The translations under genes and the position numbers were made by a program. A stretch of DNA of 64,000 nt from a bacterium OL-1 (GTDB taxonomy: Bacteria > Actinomycetota > Coriobacteriia > Coriobacteriales > Atopobiaceae). Location of the stretch: positions 380,447 to 444,446 of the forward strand of contig LM994626.1 of the NCBI GenBank assembly GCA_000752675.2, in the 5' to 3' direction. Each line of letters begins with the position of its first letter. The stretch's first letter is position 1. The notes beneath the pieces are model-generated. The model did not search any database and was not told the origin of the DNA. It was given only the letters and a program-made list of their open reading frames with translations. This document shows positions 9,043 through 49,009 of this stretch, one piece after another.

Positions 9043-9098
9043 ACGAGCAGGGCGCAAGGTAATTCCCCTTGTCGCGTGATACTCTTTCAGCAAGGCAA

Positions 9099-9127
9099 TG
9101 AGACAAAGGGACTGTCCCTTTGTCTCG
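9099..9127. repeat. 29-bp TGA-ended palindrome, copy 2
   Basis: Perfect except for the last base, centre ACTGT. It lies between the GNAT remnant and the small gene at 9159, and does not overlap a stop codon of a recognised gene. A second short TTGTCTCGC follows at 9131-9139. Confidence 0.92.
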
Positions 9128-9158
9128 CTTTTGTCTCGCTCGTTACGGGAGGCTCGTC

Positions 9159-9371: not shown

Positions 9372-9387
9372 CTGCCGCAGCCACCAA

Positions 9388-9416
9388 TGAGACAAAGGGA
9401 CTGTCCCTTTGTCTCA
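9388..9416. repeat. 29-bp TGA-ended palindrome, copy 3
   Basis: Perfect arms, centre ACTGT. Its right-hand TCA (9414-9416) is the minus-strand TGA stop codon of the DUF2075 gene. It lies 16 bases after the stop of the small plus-strand gene, in a convergent gap. Confidence 0.95.
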
Positions 9417-11531
9417 TTCCGACGCGCCGGCCTCCTGCATCTCCAGCAGGCGATGCTCGAGCGCACCGTCAACCGCAAACAAGTAGAGCCCGTGCACACC
9501 TCGCTTGAGCAGCACGTTGAGCTCGTGCCGAAGGTTCGCCTCCGGGTCCTCGCTGCCGTTGATCGCCTGCGAGTTGCAGCTCTTTGACGGGTCGAACGCC
9601 AGCCGTCCTTCTCGCCAGCAGACTGAGGGCCCAATGATCACGCCCGCGTAGTTGAGGTCGAACCCCTGGATGGTATAGATCGAGCCACATTCCCCCAGCG
9701 TGTGGGGCTGCTCGGCCCATGCCTTGTCGTGTTCCCGGGCTGCCTCGTCCCCGGTGGCAGAAGTCTGATAGTTCCACGGCATGTGGAAGTACTGCGTGCG
9801 GGGCACTTCCGCGATGCTGGCAGCTGCCTGCGCGTGACGCGAGCCGCGCCCGCCGCGCGCGCCACTCGCACCGTAGGAGACCCAGCCGCCCTGCTCGCGG
9901 TAGATGCGGACCTCCCACACGCCCGACTCCGGCTTGGACTGGCCGGAGTAGGGCCAGTCATACGTTGCCAGCACGCGCGAGAGCCCGTGCGAGGTATCGT
10001 CCACAATCTCGCCCGACGAGGCATCAAAGGCAAAAGCGCGTTCCTCGATTGCCATCTTCAGGTCGTACGTCGAGTCAAAGACCTTGATCTGGTAGGGTGT
10101 GTGCCCCTCTCGCGCCGGGTCCTGCGGGATGGGCCCCACGCCACGACCGTTTGCAAAGTCGTCGATCCACCGCACGACCTCGTCGCAGGCATCAATCCGG
10201 TACTGCTGGCGAAGGAGCAGGTTCTCCACGTGGAAGGGGAATCCCGCGACGTTGGCGGCCCTTCTCGCACAGCGAACCTTGCCATCTGAGAAGCGCTTCT
10301 CGGGAAAGAGCGCATCCCGCATCGAGGCGTCAAGTTCCTGCGACTTTCTCAGCACCTGTCCCAGGTCGTAGACCGCGATGACCACCCGAGCTCGACGCAT
10401 GATGTCCACGAGCATGTTCCTGCTACCGGAGTAGCCCTGATTGCCCTGGGTGAGCAGGAGGTGCGCCTCGTCGACAAGGGCGACGTCGACCGGGTCGCAG
10501 GGGTAGTCCTGACGCGCGAGGCCATTCCCGTGCCCGGACTCGCTGTGCTTGTTGATGAACCGCGTGGGCTTGTCCACCACCACGCCATCCTTGTTCTGGA
10601 GGCCAAGGCGCTTCATAATGGCGTTGTACACGGTGAGCTGCTCTTCATGGTTTATCAGAAGGCACGCGTTCACGGGACGCTCGGTGATCTTGCCGCCACT
10701 GCCGTCGCCGGCCACCGGGACCACAAGCTCGTTCATGATTCGCAAGAACAGGTGGCTGAGAAGGACCGTCTTGCCGGTTCCTGCCATGCCTTCGACAACA
10801 ATGAGCTCGCCGTTCTCGACGGGCGCGCTGGAATCTGGCGGCTGCGGCGCGGCAGCCCATCCGTTCATGAGGTCGCGCAGGCGGCCGAGAATCGCGTCCT
10901 CCGCGGCAATCTGGTCCTTTCCCAGCGCGCGAAACGGCGACGCCTTGAAGATGGCGGAGTCCCGGATGACGGACTCGGCCGGAAAAAGCTCCGGCTCGTA
11001 GCGGTTGAGCTTGCGCCACGCCTGCGAGGTGATTATCGGTAGCTCGGGCTTGGTGTAGTAGTCCTCCTGCGGGTTGCCGCGGCCGTTTACCAGGGTCACA
11101 TGGCTCGCGCCCGAAGCCAGAAGGTAGCTCAGGAAGTTGTTCTCGAGGTCGAGCGTGAGCGACTTGTTGAAGTGGTTCTGGGCGATCACCAGTATGTGGC
11201 TGCCAGGCTGGTTGAGGCGCCGCCACGCCTTCTTGCCCCGCTCCGAGCGATACGTGACGTCGTCGGTGTAGTGCTCCTTGGTTCGCCGCACGATGGAGTT
11301 TGTCTCGCCCACGTAGACCACGAAGTCGTCGTACTCGTAGCCGCCACGGGCGCGCTTGCGCTCCTTGCCGCGAATGATGTAGACAGTAGGGTAGGTCTTG
11401 AGGAGCCGCCGCTCGTCGGCCGTAAGCTCGCTGCCGTCCACCTCGCACTGCACCTGGTCGATGCACTGCTCGATCTGGATGTCGTCCGCGCGGAACGGCA
11501 CGTCTATGACAACCGGCTGCCTAACTGACAT
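9414..11531 (-). CDS. GIY-YIG and DUF2075 helicase-like protein
   Basis: 705 residues. An N-terminal GIY-YIG-type nuclease domain (TVYIIRG near 49, then YVGETNSIVRRTKEH near 75) precedes a DUF2075 superfamily-1-like ATPase: Walker A VEGMAGTGKT near 245, Walker B VALVDEAHLLL near 345, QYRID near 445, a motif-V-like YTIQGFDLNYAGVIIG near 620, and an arginine-bearing LLKRGVHGLYLF near 680. Such proteins are often found in defence islands; the combination suggests nucleic-acid cleavage or remodelling. Start ATG 11531 (GGAGAGG upstream); the longer frame begins inside the repeat. It follows the MazG-like gene after a 50-base gap holding a repeat copy, probably one transcript. Role inferred. Confidence 0.85.
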   Translation of the reverse strand: MSVRQPVVIDVPFRADDIQIEQCIDQVQCEVDGSELTADERRLLKTYPTVYIIRGKERKRARGGYEYDDFVVYVGETNSIVRRTKEHYTDDVTYRSERGKKAWRRLNQPGSHILVIAQNHFNKSLTLDLENNFLSYLLASGASHVTLVNGRGNPQEDYYTKPELPIITSQAWRKLNRYEPELFPAESVIRDSAIFKASPFRALGKDQIAAEDAILGRLRDLMNGWAAAPQPPDSSAPVENGELIVVEGMAGTGKTVLLSHLFLRIMNELVVPVAGDGSGGKITERPVNACLLINHEEQLTVYNAIMKRLGLQNKDGVVVDKPTRFINKHSESGHGNGLARQDYPCDPVDVALVDEAHLLLTQGNQGYSGSRNMLVDIMRRARVVIAVYDLGQVLRKSQELDASMRDALFPEKRFSDGKVRCARRAANVAGFPFHVENLLLRQQYRIDACDEVVRWIDDFANGRGVGPIPQDPAREGHTPYQIKVFDSTYDLKMAIEERAFAFDASSGEIVDDTSHGLSRVLATYDWPYSGQSKPESGVWEVRIYREQGGWVSYGASGARGGRGSRHAQAAASIAEVPRTQYFHMPWNYQTSATGDEAAREHDKAWAEQPHTLGECGSIYTIQGFDLNYAGVIIGPSVCWREGRLAFDPSKSCNSQAINGSEDPEANLRHELNVLLKRGVHGLYLFAVDGALEHRLLEMQEAGASE

Positions 11532-11555
11532 GAACCTCTCCCCTACCTTGCGGAA

Positions 11556-11584
11556 TGAGACAAAGGGACAGTCCCTTTGTCTCA
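11556..11584. repeat. 29-bp TGA-ended palindrome, copy 4
   Basis: Perfect arms, centre ACAGT. Its TCA at 11582-11584 is the stop codon of the MazG-like gene. It fills the gap between two co-directional genes, so if it terminates transcription it would attenuate the DUF2075 gene. Confidence 0.95.
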
Positions 11585-11932
11585 TAGCTCCGTGTACTTC
11601 TTGGAGTTGCCGCGGCTGAGCTCGACGGGATACTTCTTGGCGTTGGCGTCGATCTTCTCGTTCACAATCTGGAGCGGGTCAAGCCCGCAGGAGTCCGCCA
11701 TGAACAGGCAGTAGATGAGGACGTCCGCCAGCTCCTCCGAAATCTTGTCCAGGTGCCCGTCCGCCGAGGTGTCTGCCCCGGACCACTGGAACGCCTCGAG
11801 CAGCTCCGCCGACTCGAGGCTTATCGAGATGGCGAGGTCCTTGGGGTTGTGGAACTGGCGCCACTCCCGCTGGTCGCGAAAGGCGCGCAGCCTGTCGATT
11901 GTCTCCTGGTAGTCATAGTCGCCCACGAGCAT
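11582..11932 (-). CDS. MazG-like nucleotide pyrophosphohydrolase
   Basis: 116 residues with the all-alpha NTP pyrophosphohydrolase pattern: SISLESAELLEAFQW (first acidic helix) and KISEELADVLIYC (second acidic helix), which bind magnesium and hydrolyse (d)NTPs to monophosphates in this family. The C-terminal NEKIDANAKKYPVE motif is typical of the short RS21-C6/dCTPase-like members. ATG 11932 has GGGGAGG only two bases away; GTG 11926, six bases further in, has better spacing and could be the true start. Placed just upstream of the GIY-YIG/DUF2075 gene. Confidence 0.88.
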   Translation of the reverse strand: MLVGDYDYQETIDRLRAFRDQREWRQFHNPKDLAISISLESAELLEAFQWSGADTSADGHLDKISEELADVLIYCLFMADSCGLDPLQIVNEKIDANAKKYPVELSRGNSKKYTEL

Positions 11933-12887: not shown

Positions 12888-14417
12888 TTACTGCTGGTAG
12901 TAGCTCAGGAAGTCCTCGAGCTTGTCCATCGCCTCGTGCAGCGTGTGCTTACGCGGCAGGTAGACAATACGGAAGTAGCCGGGCTTCTCCCAGTTGAAGC
13001 CCTTGCCCGCGGTAATCAGGACGTGCTCGTCCTTGAGCAGATCGAGCGCAAACTGGTCGTCGTCGGTGATGTGGAACTTGTCCGGGTCGAGCCTCGGGAA
13101 GATGTAGAACGCGGCCTCGGGCTTGGTCACCGTGACGCCATCCATGTTGGAAAGTCGCTCGTAGACGTACTCGCGCTGCTCGTAGATGCGCCCGCCGGGA
13201 ACGAGAAGCCCCTGGCTGCGCTGGATGCCGCCCAGGCACGTCTGCACGATGGACTGCGCCGGCACGTTGGAGCACAGGCGCATGTTGGACAGCATGTTGA
13301 TGCCGTCGATGAGGTCCTTCGCAATGCGCTTGTTGCCCGAGAGGCTCATCCAGCCAATGCGGTAGCCCGCCACCATGTGGCTCTTGGAGAGGCCGTTGAA
13401 CGTGATGCAGAACAGGTCCGGCGCAAGGCTCGCGATGGAGACGTGCTGCTTGCCGTCCATCACCAGGCGGTCGTAGATCTCGTCCGCAAAGATGACCAGC
13501 TGGTTCTCGCGCGCCACGTCCACGATCTGCTCCAGAACCTCCCGCGGGTACAGGGCGCCCGTGGGGTTGTTGGGGTTGATCACGACGATGCCCTTGGTGC
13601 GCGGCGTGACCTTGCTGCGGATGTCGTCGATGTCAGGGTACCAGTTGGCCTTCTCGTCGCAGATGTAGTGCACGGCGGTGCCGCCGGCCAGCGTGGCGCA
13701 CGCGGTCCACAGCGGGTAGTCCGGGCTGGGGACGAGAATCTCGTCGCCCTCGTCCATGAAGGCGTTCATCGCAAGCTGGATGAGCTCCGAGGCGCCGTTG
13801 CCCGTGTAGATGTCCTCCACGTCCACGTTGGGGATGCCCTTGAGCTGGTCATACTGCATGATGGCCTTGCGCGCGGAGAAGAGGCCGCGGCTGTTGGAGT
13901 AGCCCTCGCACTCTGTGAGCTGGTCCTGCATGTCCTTCACGACCTCGTCCGGCGTGCGGAAGCCAAACGGCGCGGGGTTGCCAATGTTCAACTTGAGCAC
14001 ATGGATGCCCTGGTCCTCCATGCGGTACGCCTCGTCCAGGACGGGTCCGCGGATGTCGTAGAGGACGTTATCGAGCTTGGATGACTTCTTGAACTGGCGA
14101 CGAGGCATGGTGGATTCCTTCTTCTTGGTGGGGGTGGATGAGGCAGAGGGAGTTTCCCTTTGTCGCGTTTCCGGCGGCGCGGCGGCATCGGTCTCGCCCG
14201 AGAGCCACTCGGCGCTCACGCCGAGTGCGGTGGCGAGAAAGGCGAGCGTTGCCTTTCTCGGCTCAGTCTTGCCGCTTAGGTACTGGCTGAGCTGCGACTT
14301 TCCCAGCTTGACGCCATCGGCCGCAGCCATGCGCACAAGATCTGCCTGACGCAGGCCGCGCTCGTCCATGGCCTGGCCAAGGCGTGCCGAGAAGTCCTTG
14401 TGGGTCTGGTCTTCCAC
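12888..14417 (-). CDS. XRE-type HTH fused to AlaA-like aminotransferase
   Basis: 509 residues. Residues 1-75 form a lambda-repressor-like HTH (GLRQADLVRMAAADGVKLGK, SQLSQYLSGKTEPRK). A Pro/Ser/Lys-rich linker follows, then a fold-type I PLP aminotransferase like alanine aminotransferase AlaA (KLNIGNPAPFGF; NPNNPTGALY; FNGLSKSHMVAGYRIGW, with the PLP lysine at about 345). GTG 14417 follows AAGGGAGGGG. An internal ATG at 14108, with AAGGA seven bases upstream, marks the start of the enzyme part, so two products are possible. The linker codes through a degenerate copy of the 29-bp palindrome. The HTH may autoregulate through the array at 14454-14583 (inference). Confidence 0.88.
   Translation of the reverse strand: MEDQTHKDFSARLGQAMDERGLRQADLVRMAAADGVKLGKSQLSQYLSGKTEPRKATLAFLATALGVSAEWLSGETDAAAPPETRQRETPSASSTPTKKKESTMPRRQFKKSSKLDNVLYDIRGPVLDEAYRMEDQGIHVLKLNIGNPAPFGFRTPDEVVKDMQDQLTECEGYSNSRGLFSARKAIMQYDQLKGIPNVDVEDIYTGNGASELIQLAMNAFMDEGDEILVPSPDYPLWTACATLAGGTAVHYICDEKANWYPDIDDIRSKVTPRTKGIVVINPNNPTGALYPREVLEQIVDVARENQLVIFADEIYDRLVMDGKQHVSIASLAPDLFCITFNGLSKSHMVAGYRIGWMSLSGNKRIAKDLIDGINMLSNMRLCSNVPAQSIVQTCLGGIQRSQGLLVPGGRIYEQREYVYERLSNMDGVTVTKPEAAFYIFPRLDPDKFHITDDDQFALDLLKDEHVLITAGKGFNWEKPGYFRIVYLPRKHTLHEAMDKLEDFLSYYQQ
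14139..14167. repeat. degenerate 29-bp palindrome inside a coding region
   Basis: Copy 5, with several changes in both arms. It lies in frame inside the HTH-aminotransferase gene and encodes RQRETPSAS on the minus strand, the same peptide that intact copies would give. The changes remove the palindrome's terminal TCA/TGA, so the frame stays open. Confidence 0.75.
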
Positions 14418-14453: not shown

Positions 14454-14583
14454 AAGAAGTTCAATTTCTCTTCTCAGCTATCAACGCGTCGGACCCAAAA
14501 GTTCAATTTCTAGAACGAGAAGTTCAATTTATTGACAGAGTAGCACTGCCCATCACGGCGTACTGCGAGAAATTGAACTTCTC
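14454..14583. promoter_or_regulatory. four-site operator-like array
   Basis: Four copies of a 17-bp semi-palindrome, consensus GAGAAGTTCAATTTCTC, at 14454-14470, 14497-14513, 14517-14533 and, inverted and complete, at 14567-14583. They occupy the region upstream of the HTH-aminotransferase gene (start 14417, minus strand), as expected for autoregulation by its HTH domain. The number four and the mixed orientation also resemble the intergenic repeat quartets described elsewhere in the window, so a non-regulatory repeat is the alternative. Confidence 0.65.
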
Positions 14584-14682: not shown

Positions 14683-14816
14683 TTCGCGCCCGAAGCTGTA
14701 TCCCGCGCAGGTCGGTACAGATTCGGACGCCGAATCTGTATCCCCTCTCCACACGTTCGCGCCCGAAGCTGTATCCTGCCCAGGTCGATACACATTCGTG
14801 CGTCGAACCTGTACCG
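14683..14816. repeat. tandem 75-bp imperfect repeat with inverted parts
   Basis: The segment starting CACACGTTCGCGCCCGAAGC occurs at about 14678 and 14752, each continuing with TGTATCC and CCAGGTCG or GCAGGTCG. Within each copy GAAGCTGTATCC is followed by its approximate inverse GGTACAGATTC or GATACACATTC. It lies between divergent genes and has no coding look. Confidence 0.75.
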
Positions 14817-15360: not shown

Positions 15361-15711
15361 CTATCGCAGCTCGATATCCCCCTTGCGCAGGTGCTCGATG
15401 TAGCCCTCGCCCCACGTCTCAATGCTCGAGAGCACCGGAACAAAGTCCTCCCCCACCTGCGTGAGCGAGTATTCCACGCGCGGCGGCACCTCCGGGAAGA
15501 CCTCGCGGCGCACCAGCCCCTCTGTCTCCAGCCGCTTGAGCTGCGAGGAGAGCGTGGAGTGCGTAAGCTCGGGCATGCGGCGCTCAAGTTCGCCAAAGCG
15601 CAGCTTGCCCTTGCTGAGGTGGTGGAGAATCACGATCGACCACTTGCCCTGGAGCAGCCACTGCGCGGTCACAAATGGACAGACGCCAAAGTCTTTGGGT
15701 GTGCTTCGCAT
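15361..15711 (-). CDS. HxlR-family transcriptional regulator
   Basis: 116 residues of winged-helix HxlR type, with the N-terminal cysteine (DFGVCPF) and the family core GKWSIVILHHLSKGKLRFGE, ERRMPELTHSTLSSQLKRLE, RREVFPEVPPRVEYSLT. Start ATG 15711 is preceded by GGAAGGGA; a longer frame starts at 15786 without a ribosome site. Divergent from the FMN reductase gene at 15867, which is its probable target; members of the family often sense reactive electrophiles, quinones or redox changes. Confidence 0.92.
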   Translation of the reverse strand: MRSTPKDFGVCPFVTAQWLLQGKWSIVILHHLSKGKLRFGELERRMPELTHSTLSSQLKRLETEGLVRREVFPEVPPRVEYSLTQVGEDFVPVLSSIETWGEGYIEHLRKGDIELR

Positions 15712-15741
15712 GTGATGCCGTCCCTTCCTGCTGTTAGCAGA

Positions 15742-15761
15742 TGGTATCTCAACTAATACCA
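15742..15761. promoter_or_regulatory. inverted repeat in hxlR-reductase divergent promoter
   Basis: TGGTAT and ATACCA arms with an 8-base spacer, 31 bases from the HxlR start codon and in the intergenic region shared with the reductase gene. The geometry fits a dimeric winged-helix regulator. Assignment to HxlR is inference from position. Confidence 0.5.
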
Positions 15762-15866
15762 AGTATCGAGAAAAAACGTTATTCAAACACTCACATATAT
15801 TGGATACACTGATTTTAGTACAGAGTTGCTACCAAGTCGACACACCCGACTGAACAGGAGAGAGCA

Positions 15867-16421
15867 ATGGCAGAGAAGAACGTCCTCATCGTAGTGGGAA
15901 CCCTCCGCAAGAACGGCTTCAACGAGCAGCTGGCCCAGCGCATCGAGGCGCTGCTTGAGGGCCGCGCCAACGTGAGCAGGCTCGACTACTCGGCGCTGCC
16001 CCTCATGAACCAGGACCTCGAGGATCCCGAGCGCGCAGAGGTCGCGGCCGTACGTGAGGCCGTGCGTCAGGCCGACGGCGTGTGGTTCGTAAGCCCGCAG
16101 TACAACGCCTCGTTCCCCGGCCACGTGAAGAACCTGGTCGACTGGCTGAGCAGGCCGCTTCCCGGCAAGGGTCGCGACACCGCCGTTTCCGGCGGCATGC
16201 GCGCAACCGTCTCCGGCGCGGGCGGCCGCACCGCCACCGCCGAGATGCGTGCCGCGCTCGACGCGCTTCTCGCCTTTGTGGGCGCGCAGGTCATGACTGA
16301 GAAAGAGACCGGCATCGCCCTCTCCGGCGAGTCCTGGATGTCCGGCACGCTGACCCTCTCCCCCGAGGACGAGGCCGCCCTTGCCGCCCAGGCAGACGCC
16401 TTCCTTGAGTTCATCGCGTAA
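15867..16421 (+). CDS. NADPH-dependent FMN reductase
   Basis: 184-residue flavodoxin-fold protein of the chromate/quinone reductase group: VGTLRKNGFNEQLAQRI carries the FMN phosphate loop, and VWFVSPQYNASFPGHVKNLV is the family signature. It reduces FMN, quinones or similar acceptors with NADPH. ATG 15867 follows AGGAGAG. Under probable control of the divergent HxlR regulator. Confidence 0.92.
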   Translation: MAEKNVLIVVGTLRKNGFNEQLAQRIEALLEGRANVSRLDYSALPLMNQDLEDPERAEVAAVREAVRQADGVWFVSPQYNASFPGHVKNLVDWLSRPLPGKGRDTAVSGGMRATVSGAGGRTATAEMRAALDALLAFVGAQVMTEKETGIALSGESWMSGTLTLSPEDEAALAAQADAFLEFIA

Positions 16422-23685: not shown

Positions 23686-23722
23686 AATAATCGGCGCGGA
23701 GAGGCCACCCTCCCCGCGCCGA

Positions 23723-23751
23723 TGAGACAAAGGGAAACTCCCTTGGTCTCA
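23723..23751. repeat. 29-bp TGA-ended palindrome, copy 6
   Basis: One mismatch (CCCTTGGTCTCA). Its TCA at 23749-23751 is the stop codon of the flavodoxin remnant on the minus strand. Also close to the end of the CDF gene (stop 23685). Confidence 0.93.
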
Positions 23752-24024
23752 TCCCGCCAGCTTGGCGCCAAGGGCCTCGCAGGCTGTAAGCGCGTCATCG
23801 TCCGGCTCGAGGTGCGCGATGTAGGTCTCGACCACGTTCACACCGGCATCCTTGGCCGCCTGCTCCCACGTGCGCATCCACTCGCCATCGCCCCAGTCGT
23901 AGGAGCCAAAGAGCGCCACGGGGCGGCGCACGACGGCCCCGACGGCCCTCCCGCGCCCGCCAGAAGAAAAAAGCGCCCGGAGCTCGCCGTCCGCAAGTAC
24001 GGGCGAGACAAGCTCCAGGCGCAT
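23749..24024 (-). pseudogene. flavodoxin, C-terminal remnant
   Basis: The minus-strand frame ends with an unmistakable flavodoxin C-terminus: PVALFGSYDWGDGEWMRTWE (the second FMN loop region) and HLEPDDDALTACEALGAKL. An intact flavodoxin has about 140 residues with an N-terminal TGNT phosphate loop; here only about 65 C-terminal residues are recognisable, preceded by a poor-quality stretch and then by a repeat copy at 24024-24052. The remnant is thus framed by two copies of the 29-bp palindrome. An ATG at 24023 could still start an about 90-residue peptide. Confidence 0.75.
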
Positions 24025-24049
24025 GAGACAAAGGGAAACTCCCTTTGTC

Positions 24050-24052
<3 letters not shown>
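24024..24052. repeat. 29-bp TGA-ended palindrome, copy 7
   Basis: Perfect, centre AAACT. Its TCA at 24050-24052 is the stop codon of enolase. The other side abuts the start of the flavodoxin remnant. Confidence 0.95.
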
Positions 24053-25796
<1,744 letters not shown>

Positions 25797-48652: not shown

Positions 48653-48967
48653 ATGGGTTTCATGATGAGAAACACAGACACACACGAGCATCGCACCGCC
48701 CGCAGCGTCACGCACGGGGGGCTGCGCGCGCCGGAGTACGGCGAGCTGCAGCAGCTGGTAAACGAGCTCTACTACCACAACATGTCCGGGTCGGTCAGCA
48801 AAATCGACGTGCTCACGCGCGCCGAGATTGACGACCTGTGCGATGACCTCATGGAGGTCGTCGACCTTCTCCCCGCGGGCAGGTACAAGCGCGGGAGGCT
48901 GTGCGACCAGCTCAACAGCATCGTGACGGCCCACGGCTGGGGCAACGTCTACGGCACGGTTGAGTGA
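48653..48967 (+). CDS. conserved-looking hypothetical protein
   Basis: 104 residues, no family recognised. The sequence (ELQQLVNELYYHNMSGSVSK, LTRAEIDDLCDDLMEVVDLL, CDQLNSIVTAHGWGNVYGTV) has the regular helix pattern and codon bias of a real gene. ATG 48653 is chosen; no ribosome site is visible, and ATGs at 48662 and 48665 are possible, so it may be leaderless (a TATAGC -10-like hexamer is at 48615). The stop codon TGA is the first three bases of a 29-bp palindrome copy. Confidence 0.65.
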   Translation: MGFMMRNTDTHEHRTARSVTHGGLRAPEYGELQQLVNELYYHNMSGSVSKIDVLTRAEIDDLCDDLMEVVDLLPAGRYKRGRLCDQLNSIVTAHGWGNVYGTVE

Positions 48968-48993
48968 GACAAAGGGAGTTTCCCTTTGTCTCA
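48965..48993. repeat. 29-bp TGA-ended palindrome, copy 8
   Basis: Perfect, centre AGTTT. TGA at 48965-48967 is the stop codon of the preceding plus-strand gene. Confidence 0.95.
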
Positions 48994-49009
48994 TTCCTAA
49001 TGGCATGCG

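Follow-up and report, generated by a model that had tools for sequence, protein, structure and literature searches.

Does a metabolic enzyme that carries its own DNA-binding domain control its own gene? This question is raised by a locus of the bacterium OL-1 (Atopobiaceae, Coriobacteriales), located in a window of 64,000 nucleotides (the whole stretch of DNA that was analysed; contig LM994626.1, positions 380,447 to 444,446) of a 2.46 Mb genome. The gene appears to encode an AlaA-type alanine aminotransferase that is connected, through a linker predicted to be disordered, to a helix-turn-helix (HTH) domain of the phage CI type, and four copies of a short site are found upstream of it. We consider it very likely that this enzyme, which looks catalytically intact, represses its own gene through the flexibly tethered CI-type domains; binding and repression are what we infer from sequence comparison.

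The array in front of the fusion gene

The sequence-only reading had described four sites upstream of the gene, three in one direction and one inverted, and this arrangement was confirmed. The 17-bp sequence GAGAAGTTCAATTTCTC is matched at 14454-14470 (plus strand, one mismatch), 14496-14512 (plus, three), 14517-14533 (plus, two) and 14567-14583 (minus, exact), a fifth match row being the 14567 site on the opposite strand; none of 100 shuffles reached five matches (mean 0.05, largest 2). All four sites contain the exact 10-mer AGTTCAATTT, the four copies lying between 41 and 162 bases ahead of the GTG start codon, counted from its first base. The whole genome holds six copies of it, four of them at this array, against none for the reversed control. 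A 15-mer searched in the same genome gave 58 matches with three mismatches allowed (38 for the reversed control), and the four matches with no or one mismatch all fell inside the array.

The unit itself had been taken for a 17-bp semi-palindrome, and this description had to be given up: only one of the four sites matches the 17-mer exactly, and what relatives conserve is the asymmetric AAATTGAACT(t). The term misleads because TGAAC is invariant across relatives but the GAGA/TCTC flanks are near background. In an alignment of seven congeners, of which the window is one, no variation is seen in 33 of the 40 core columns and in 36 of the 158 others, and the GGAG...GTG gene end is kept with small changes in all seven.

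Two AGTTCAATTT copies lie outside the array, by eye one before a gene that looks Fur-like and the other in a hairpin that looks like a terminator. In L005 a 23-bp palindrome (1491-1513), perfect except for its centre base and holding a AGTTCAATTT copy, precedes the gene that by eye looks Fur-like and is perhaps the operator of that gene.

Sites and DNA-binding domain among relatives

The family search covered 140 genomes, 138 with some match and 113 below 1e-100. The first set consisted of 110 of these 113 family loci (G004, G081 and G139 were left out) together with 70 genomes of other families in the class, a selection from the class list (40 taken by place and 30 from its lower-scoring rows); upstream sequence of 150 bp or more was available for 178 of the 180 loci, and L039 and L211 were dropped. 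Of 107 family upstream regions counted for motifs without a seed, 106 contained AATTGAAC, 106 contained AGTTCAAT and 103 contained the 9-mer AATTGAACT; in 20 shuffled upstream sets the most frequent 9-mer reached only 4-6 regions. With at most one mismatch to AAATTGAACT, at least two sites were present at 151 of the 164 loci with an in-frame HTH, and all 13 HTH-less loci were without sites. A matrix built from 519 first-set sites, in which TGAAC is invariant, detected at 7 bits 2-8 sites at all 165 HTH loci and none at the 13 HTH-less ones. As controls, a site was found in 0 of 165 coding stretches, while 62 of 825 shuffles had at least one and 3 of 825 had two. L204 was counted as HTH-bearing though a run of N hides its frame, and L208, with a 468-aa frame and no HTH match, as HTH-less. 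A split HTH in L204 and L256 was considered and rejected, since a run of N in the region hides the reading frame.

The second set came from a scan of named genomes and comprised the best 80 of 588 relatives, of which three had too little upstream sequence and 12 of the remaining 77 were identified as duplicates of first-set loci. At 9 bits, at least two sites were present at all 27 loci with the CI-type HTH and at none of the 36 HTH-less loci, one of which (L275) has a single site; two further loci carry another HTH. The 27 loci, several of them metagenome bins, include four from Bifidobacterium, 13 from Lachnospiraceae, 3 from Oscillospiraceae and one from Erysipelotrichaceae (NCBI names). 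Domain and sites occur together in Coriobacteriales, Bifidobacterium and Bacillota. In a sample of 396 genomes of the phylum, 80 matched at 1e-40; none of the rows from outside the class starts before query residue 41, which means that these rows showed no fusion, but the named-genome scan does find fusions in Bifidobacterium.

Taken together, by matrix score, at least two upstream sites were present at 192 of 192 HTH loci and at 0 of 49 HTH-less orthologues, which is the co-occurrence of array and fusion in related genomes that had been proposed as a check. As the loci are related, the Fisher p of 2e-52 is indicative only. The best tree of 75 aminotransferase domains has six changes of the HTH, and the sites change along each time, all HTH-less rows being without sites and all HTH rows having at least two.

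Within genomes, direct pairs of sites are also nearly confined to the fusion. Pairs of the form AATTGAAC-N6-36-AATTGAAC occurred 60 times in 46 of the 140 genomes (control 0), and 59 of the 60 adjoin the fusion, the exception being G080:C3:69475; none was found in the 27 genomes without an orthologue. This search covered direct pairs, as distinct from inverted pairs or single distant sites. A wider regulon in the window genome was looked for and rejected, as there is no further direct pair and every 15-mer match with at most one mismatch is one of the four array sites. In G017, 20 exact sites were counted (control 0); those away from the fusion are mostly single and in reading frames, with a few intergenic ones (L300, L304, L311), and there may be a small regulon in this genome.

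The strongest indication, in our view, that the array is read by the HTH is the association of a different HTH with a different array. L261 and L267 have the same enzyme with another HTH domain, which finds only weak matches in the PDB: DBP48 (E 6e-5), the 434 repressor (E 2.5e-4) and TP901-1 CI (E 0.003). Upstream of each there are four exact copies of AAAGTTTAA, which is absent from 38 other HTH-bearing and 37 HTH-less loci. These two genomes have 9 and 10 copies overall against 8 and 7 for the reversed control, which is no enrichment, and the four copies cluster at the fusion locus in each. A third set was drawn from 250 genomes of the family of L261 and L267, of which 34 matched below 1e-100 and 30 loci were read. 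Two of the 30 are the L261 and L267 genomes again, and L319 is a third genome, with five AAAGTTTAA copies, so that three Clostridia genomes combine the different HTH on the same enzyme with the AAAGTTTAA array. The same set holds four CI-type fusions with 2-5 AAATTGAAC sites, one of them also with a single AAAGTTTAA, and 23 HTH-less loci, 18 with no site and five with one at one mismatch. AAGTTTAA and AAGTTCAA differ at the C whose change to G abolished specific binding of phi13 CI, according to PMC8516035. The nearest listed relatives of the second fusion are HTH-less (76% identity), and this HTH type may represent a second fusion event or a domain replacement.

Protein, predicted promoter and the readings they allow

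The Pfam scan of the fusion protein returned HTH_3 and Aminotran_1_2 (E 6.1e-56); HTH_3 was above its cut-off, HTH_31 and HTH_19 were below theirs, and no GntR family matched at E 0.001. The XRE-type domain that the sequence-only reading had seen on the enzyme is upheld by HTH_3 and by the match to the N-terminal domain (NTD) of TP901-1 CI (3zhm), the best PDB match of the HTH part having a significant stretch. Two BURRH rows that ranked above it were discarded, these being repeat proteins with no stretch significant by itself. Gln45 does not vary in 11 aligned fusions, and a Q45A/N48A variant of TP901-1 CI is listed as impaired in DNA binding in PMC11149083. In the structure model the HTH is helical, with a predicted local distance difference test score (pLDDT) of 86-91 across residues 11-70 and a mean of 75.9 for the whole protein; the aminotransferase part is of mixed confidence, with values below 50 also at residues 118-126, 139-175 and 398-404. 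The linker has 2-96 aa (median 30) in 165 relatives by a rough measure. The catalytic residues of class I enzymes (K345, D312, N283, R353 and R483, with the roles that we presume for them) are retained, and their columns are invariant in the aligned relatives. The protein scores under the NCBIfam equivalog cut-off for PRK08363 (355 vs 534 bits); the annotation name that we take to apply, 'bifunctional HTH-domain containing protein/aminotransferase' (PRK13355), was returned by no search here. A scan of viral contigs for the source of the HTH, which reaches close relatives only, gave two pattern matches and no relative.

Table 1. The fusion gene, its parts and its upstream elements, by position in the window
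Feature	Position	Strand	Remarks
HTH-aminotransferase fusion gene	12888..14417	-	509 aa, GTG start behind GGAGGGG ribosome-binding-like stretch
AlaA-type aminotransferase domain, residues 111-509	12891..14087	-	E. coli AlaA 4cvq, E 9.5e-158
Linker, about residues 75-110	14088..14195	-	pLDDT <50 at residues 82-105
XRE/CI-type HTH domain, residues 8-74	14196..14396	-	TP901-1 CI NTD 3zhm, E 1.2e-9
Predicted recognition helix, residues 40-48, KSQLSQYLS	14274..14300	-	3zhm match, alignment, structure model
Site 4, AAATTGAACT, separated from start codon by 40 bases; distance to site 3, 42 bp	14458..14467	-	
Site 3, AAATTGAACT, 21 bp from site 2	14500..14509	-	
Site 2, AAATTGAACT, about at predicted transcription start	14521..14530	-	
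Predicted extended -10 element TGCTACTCT	14537..14545	-	promoter-like sequence; transcription start predicted
Site 1, AAATTGAACT, oriented against the gene, upstream of predicted -10	14570..14579	+	

The sites are arranged around a probable promoter. Upstream of 49 representative loci TGNTANNNT occurs 35 times against 5 for a control pattern, and relative to it the sites peak at -40..-36 (16), at -20..-16 when inverted (9) and at +10..+14 when direct (19), peaks for which significance was not computed; the stretch from -10 to +9 is nearly empty (4), and downstream sites also lie at +30..+34 and +50..+54. In the window the sites have offsets of -37, +12, +33 and +75 from the TGCTACTCT -10, whose GTGCTA is retained in six of the seven congeners, the window counted. 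For neighbouring sites that point the same way, the period that fits best is 10.5 bp (R 0.43, n=216). Phasing near this value was seen at 165, 73 and 49 clusters and, compared with jittered spacings, holds at 73 and 49 clusters in all three orientation classes.

What sequence comparison shows is that the sites exist and go with the HTH, that the HTH is related to TP901-1 CI, that the half-site core is shared, and that the sites are phased and close to a promoter-like element. Class I aminotransferases are dimers, and the HTH domains of such a dimer would bind single asymmetric sites around their own promoter, the aminotransferase dimer standing in for the dimerisation region of CI. Helical phasing would allow one or several dimers to hold at least two sites on one face of the DNA despite their variable order and orientation. 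Sites occupied around the -10 and the start would block RNA polymerase, and the enzyme would limit its own synthesis; it is this position around the promoter that argues for repression. Since the catalytic residues are conserved, the enzyme is probably still working, and its control may respond to substrate, to cofactor or to the amount of enzyme; substrate, pyridoxal phosphate (PLP) or enzyme level may set the affinity for DNA. Only tentatively, and with somewhat less than even confidence, we suggest that a housekeeping enzyme family, still active, acquired a repressor-type HTH and a matching array, perhaps twice, and that AlaA, through its catalytic state (PLP or pyridoxamine phosphate form, substrate-closed dimer), directly sets the occupancy of its own promoter.

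Several points weigh against self-repression. Counted with at most one mismatch, 13 of the 164 loci with an in-frame HTH show just one site, and as the matrix was made from the first set, independent tests of it come from the second and third sets only. Only three of the six HTH changes are forced by well-supported branches (sign test p 0.25, a test that three pairs cannot bring to significance). The phasing is not significant once collapsed to 11 clusters (p 0.07, 0.33 and 0.80), and site number, order and orientation vary freely among relatives. The choice of repression over activation, moreover, is drawn from the positions of the sites. If the fusion bound the array but activated its gene, or switched between the two with substrate, this would suit the many species with a site near -38 of the -10, upstream of the -35 place, as activator sites often are. 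We regard this as unlikely, because sites also lie about at the start and at all the downstream peaks given above, which fits repression, and extended -10 promoters often work without an activator.

That another regulator binds the array in trans, the HTH of the enzyme being incidental, would be conceivable given how common XRE proteins are; it found no direct support, and we think it very improbable, because arrays are absent without the HTH (0 of 49) and different where the HTH differs, no other direct pair was found in the window genome, and the core of the CI half-site matches. Hardly credible is a reading of the repeats as promoter duplications or as a dispersed repeat with no binding role. 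TTGAAC does resemble a -35 box, and in several other species the TTGAAC of a site occupies the -35 position (offset -25), but the sites occur in both orientations, in 2-8 copies and across phyla with the HTH and not without it, and AGTTCAATTT is concentrated at the array.

The proposed self-repression by the fusion can be set beside systems already known, among them MocR, regulators with an aminotransferase fold, and BzdR, in which an XRE HTH is fused to an enzyme fold. PutA, like other trigger enzymes, is a metabolic enzyme that controls transcription, in its case at its own locus, as we propose for the fusion; the folds and sites are unrelated. The sequence-only reading had suggested sensing like that of MocR proteins. 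This stands as a possible mode of working and fails as membership: with the binding and repression that we infer, the fusion would resemble MocR regulators and trigger enzymes in its mode of action without itself being a MocR. According to PMC5320631, MocR, GabR and PdxR share with it a DNA-binding domain, a linker and an aminotransferase fold, and have operators of direct and of mixed direct and inverted boxes, where here three sites point one way and one the other, with mixed orders in relatives. Unlike MocR, whose HTH is of the GntR family, the fusion has an XRE/CI-like HTH and an AlaA-like enzyme with its catalytic residues, and its own gene is the sole paired target found. E. coli AlaA (4cvq) resembles the whole aminotransferase domain, but the alignment starts at query residue 108 (AlaA residue 29), which leaves no room for an HTH domain in AlaA.

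The closest parallel for the HTH is TP901-1/phi13 CI, whose half-site AGTTCAYR gives no detectable specific band with phi13 CI when its central C is changed to G (PMC8516035). The fusion sites are identical in AGTTCA and continue with ATTT against the phage YR. For TP901-1, DNA binding is weak with the isolated CI domain and cooperative, over two half-sites, with the dimer, and the linker keeps its flexibility (PMC4941734). Homologous DNA-binding domain, Gln45, AGTTCA core and flexible linker are shared by CI and the fusion (PMC8516035, PMC4941734, PMC7250872, PMC11149083). Unlike TP901-1 CI, the fusion has Aminotran_1_2 in place of the helical C-terminal region for dimerisation and multimerisation, and spaced single boxes in place of close inverted pairs. 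BzdR likewise links an XRE HTH to an enzyme fold, a shikimate-kinase-like domain; according to PMC3602430 its targets are benzoate genes, and the authors suggest that it arose by loss of enzyme activity, whereas the fusion enzyme looks intact and its target would be its own gene. An open-access search, which leaves most subscription journals outside its reach, found no literature on the fusion or its sites.

If self-repression is true, this would be a widespread self-controlling metabolic enzyme of gut bacteria (Collinsella, Olsenella, Bifidobacterium, Lachnospiraceae). The presence, absence and exchange of its DNA-binding domain would be natural experiments on an enzyme becoming a transcription factor, and so small a system, one protein and one promoter, would make sensing by a working enzyme directly testable. 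Should the catalytic state also matter, the enzyme would read its own workload.

Neighbouring repeats and genes

Beside the array, at 14691-14815, there are five exact CGAANCTGTAYC units in both orientations. They were ruled out as part of the fusion system, as the unit is present elsewhere in the genome; with 19 exact units genome-wide it is probably a repeat like the repetitive extragenic palindromes (REP). If one mismatch is allowed, the reversed control gives more matches than the unit does (131 vs 70).

A dispersed palindrome, ATGAGACAAAGGGA-N3-TCCCTTTGTCTCAT, was found at 9098-9128, 9387-9417, 11555-11585, 14144-14162, 23722-23752, 24023-24053 and 48964-48994 and at two weaker places; with at most three mismatches the long form gives six matches and the core nine. 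A diverged copy lies inside the linker-coding part of the fusion, where MRQRDSPFVSS is encoded in two congeners. At 15361-16421 a gene for an HxlR-type regulator is divergent from one that by eye looks like an NADPH-dependent FMN reductase.
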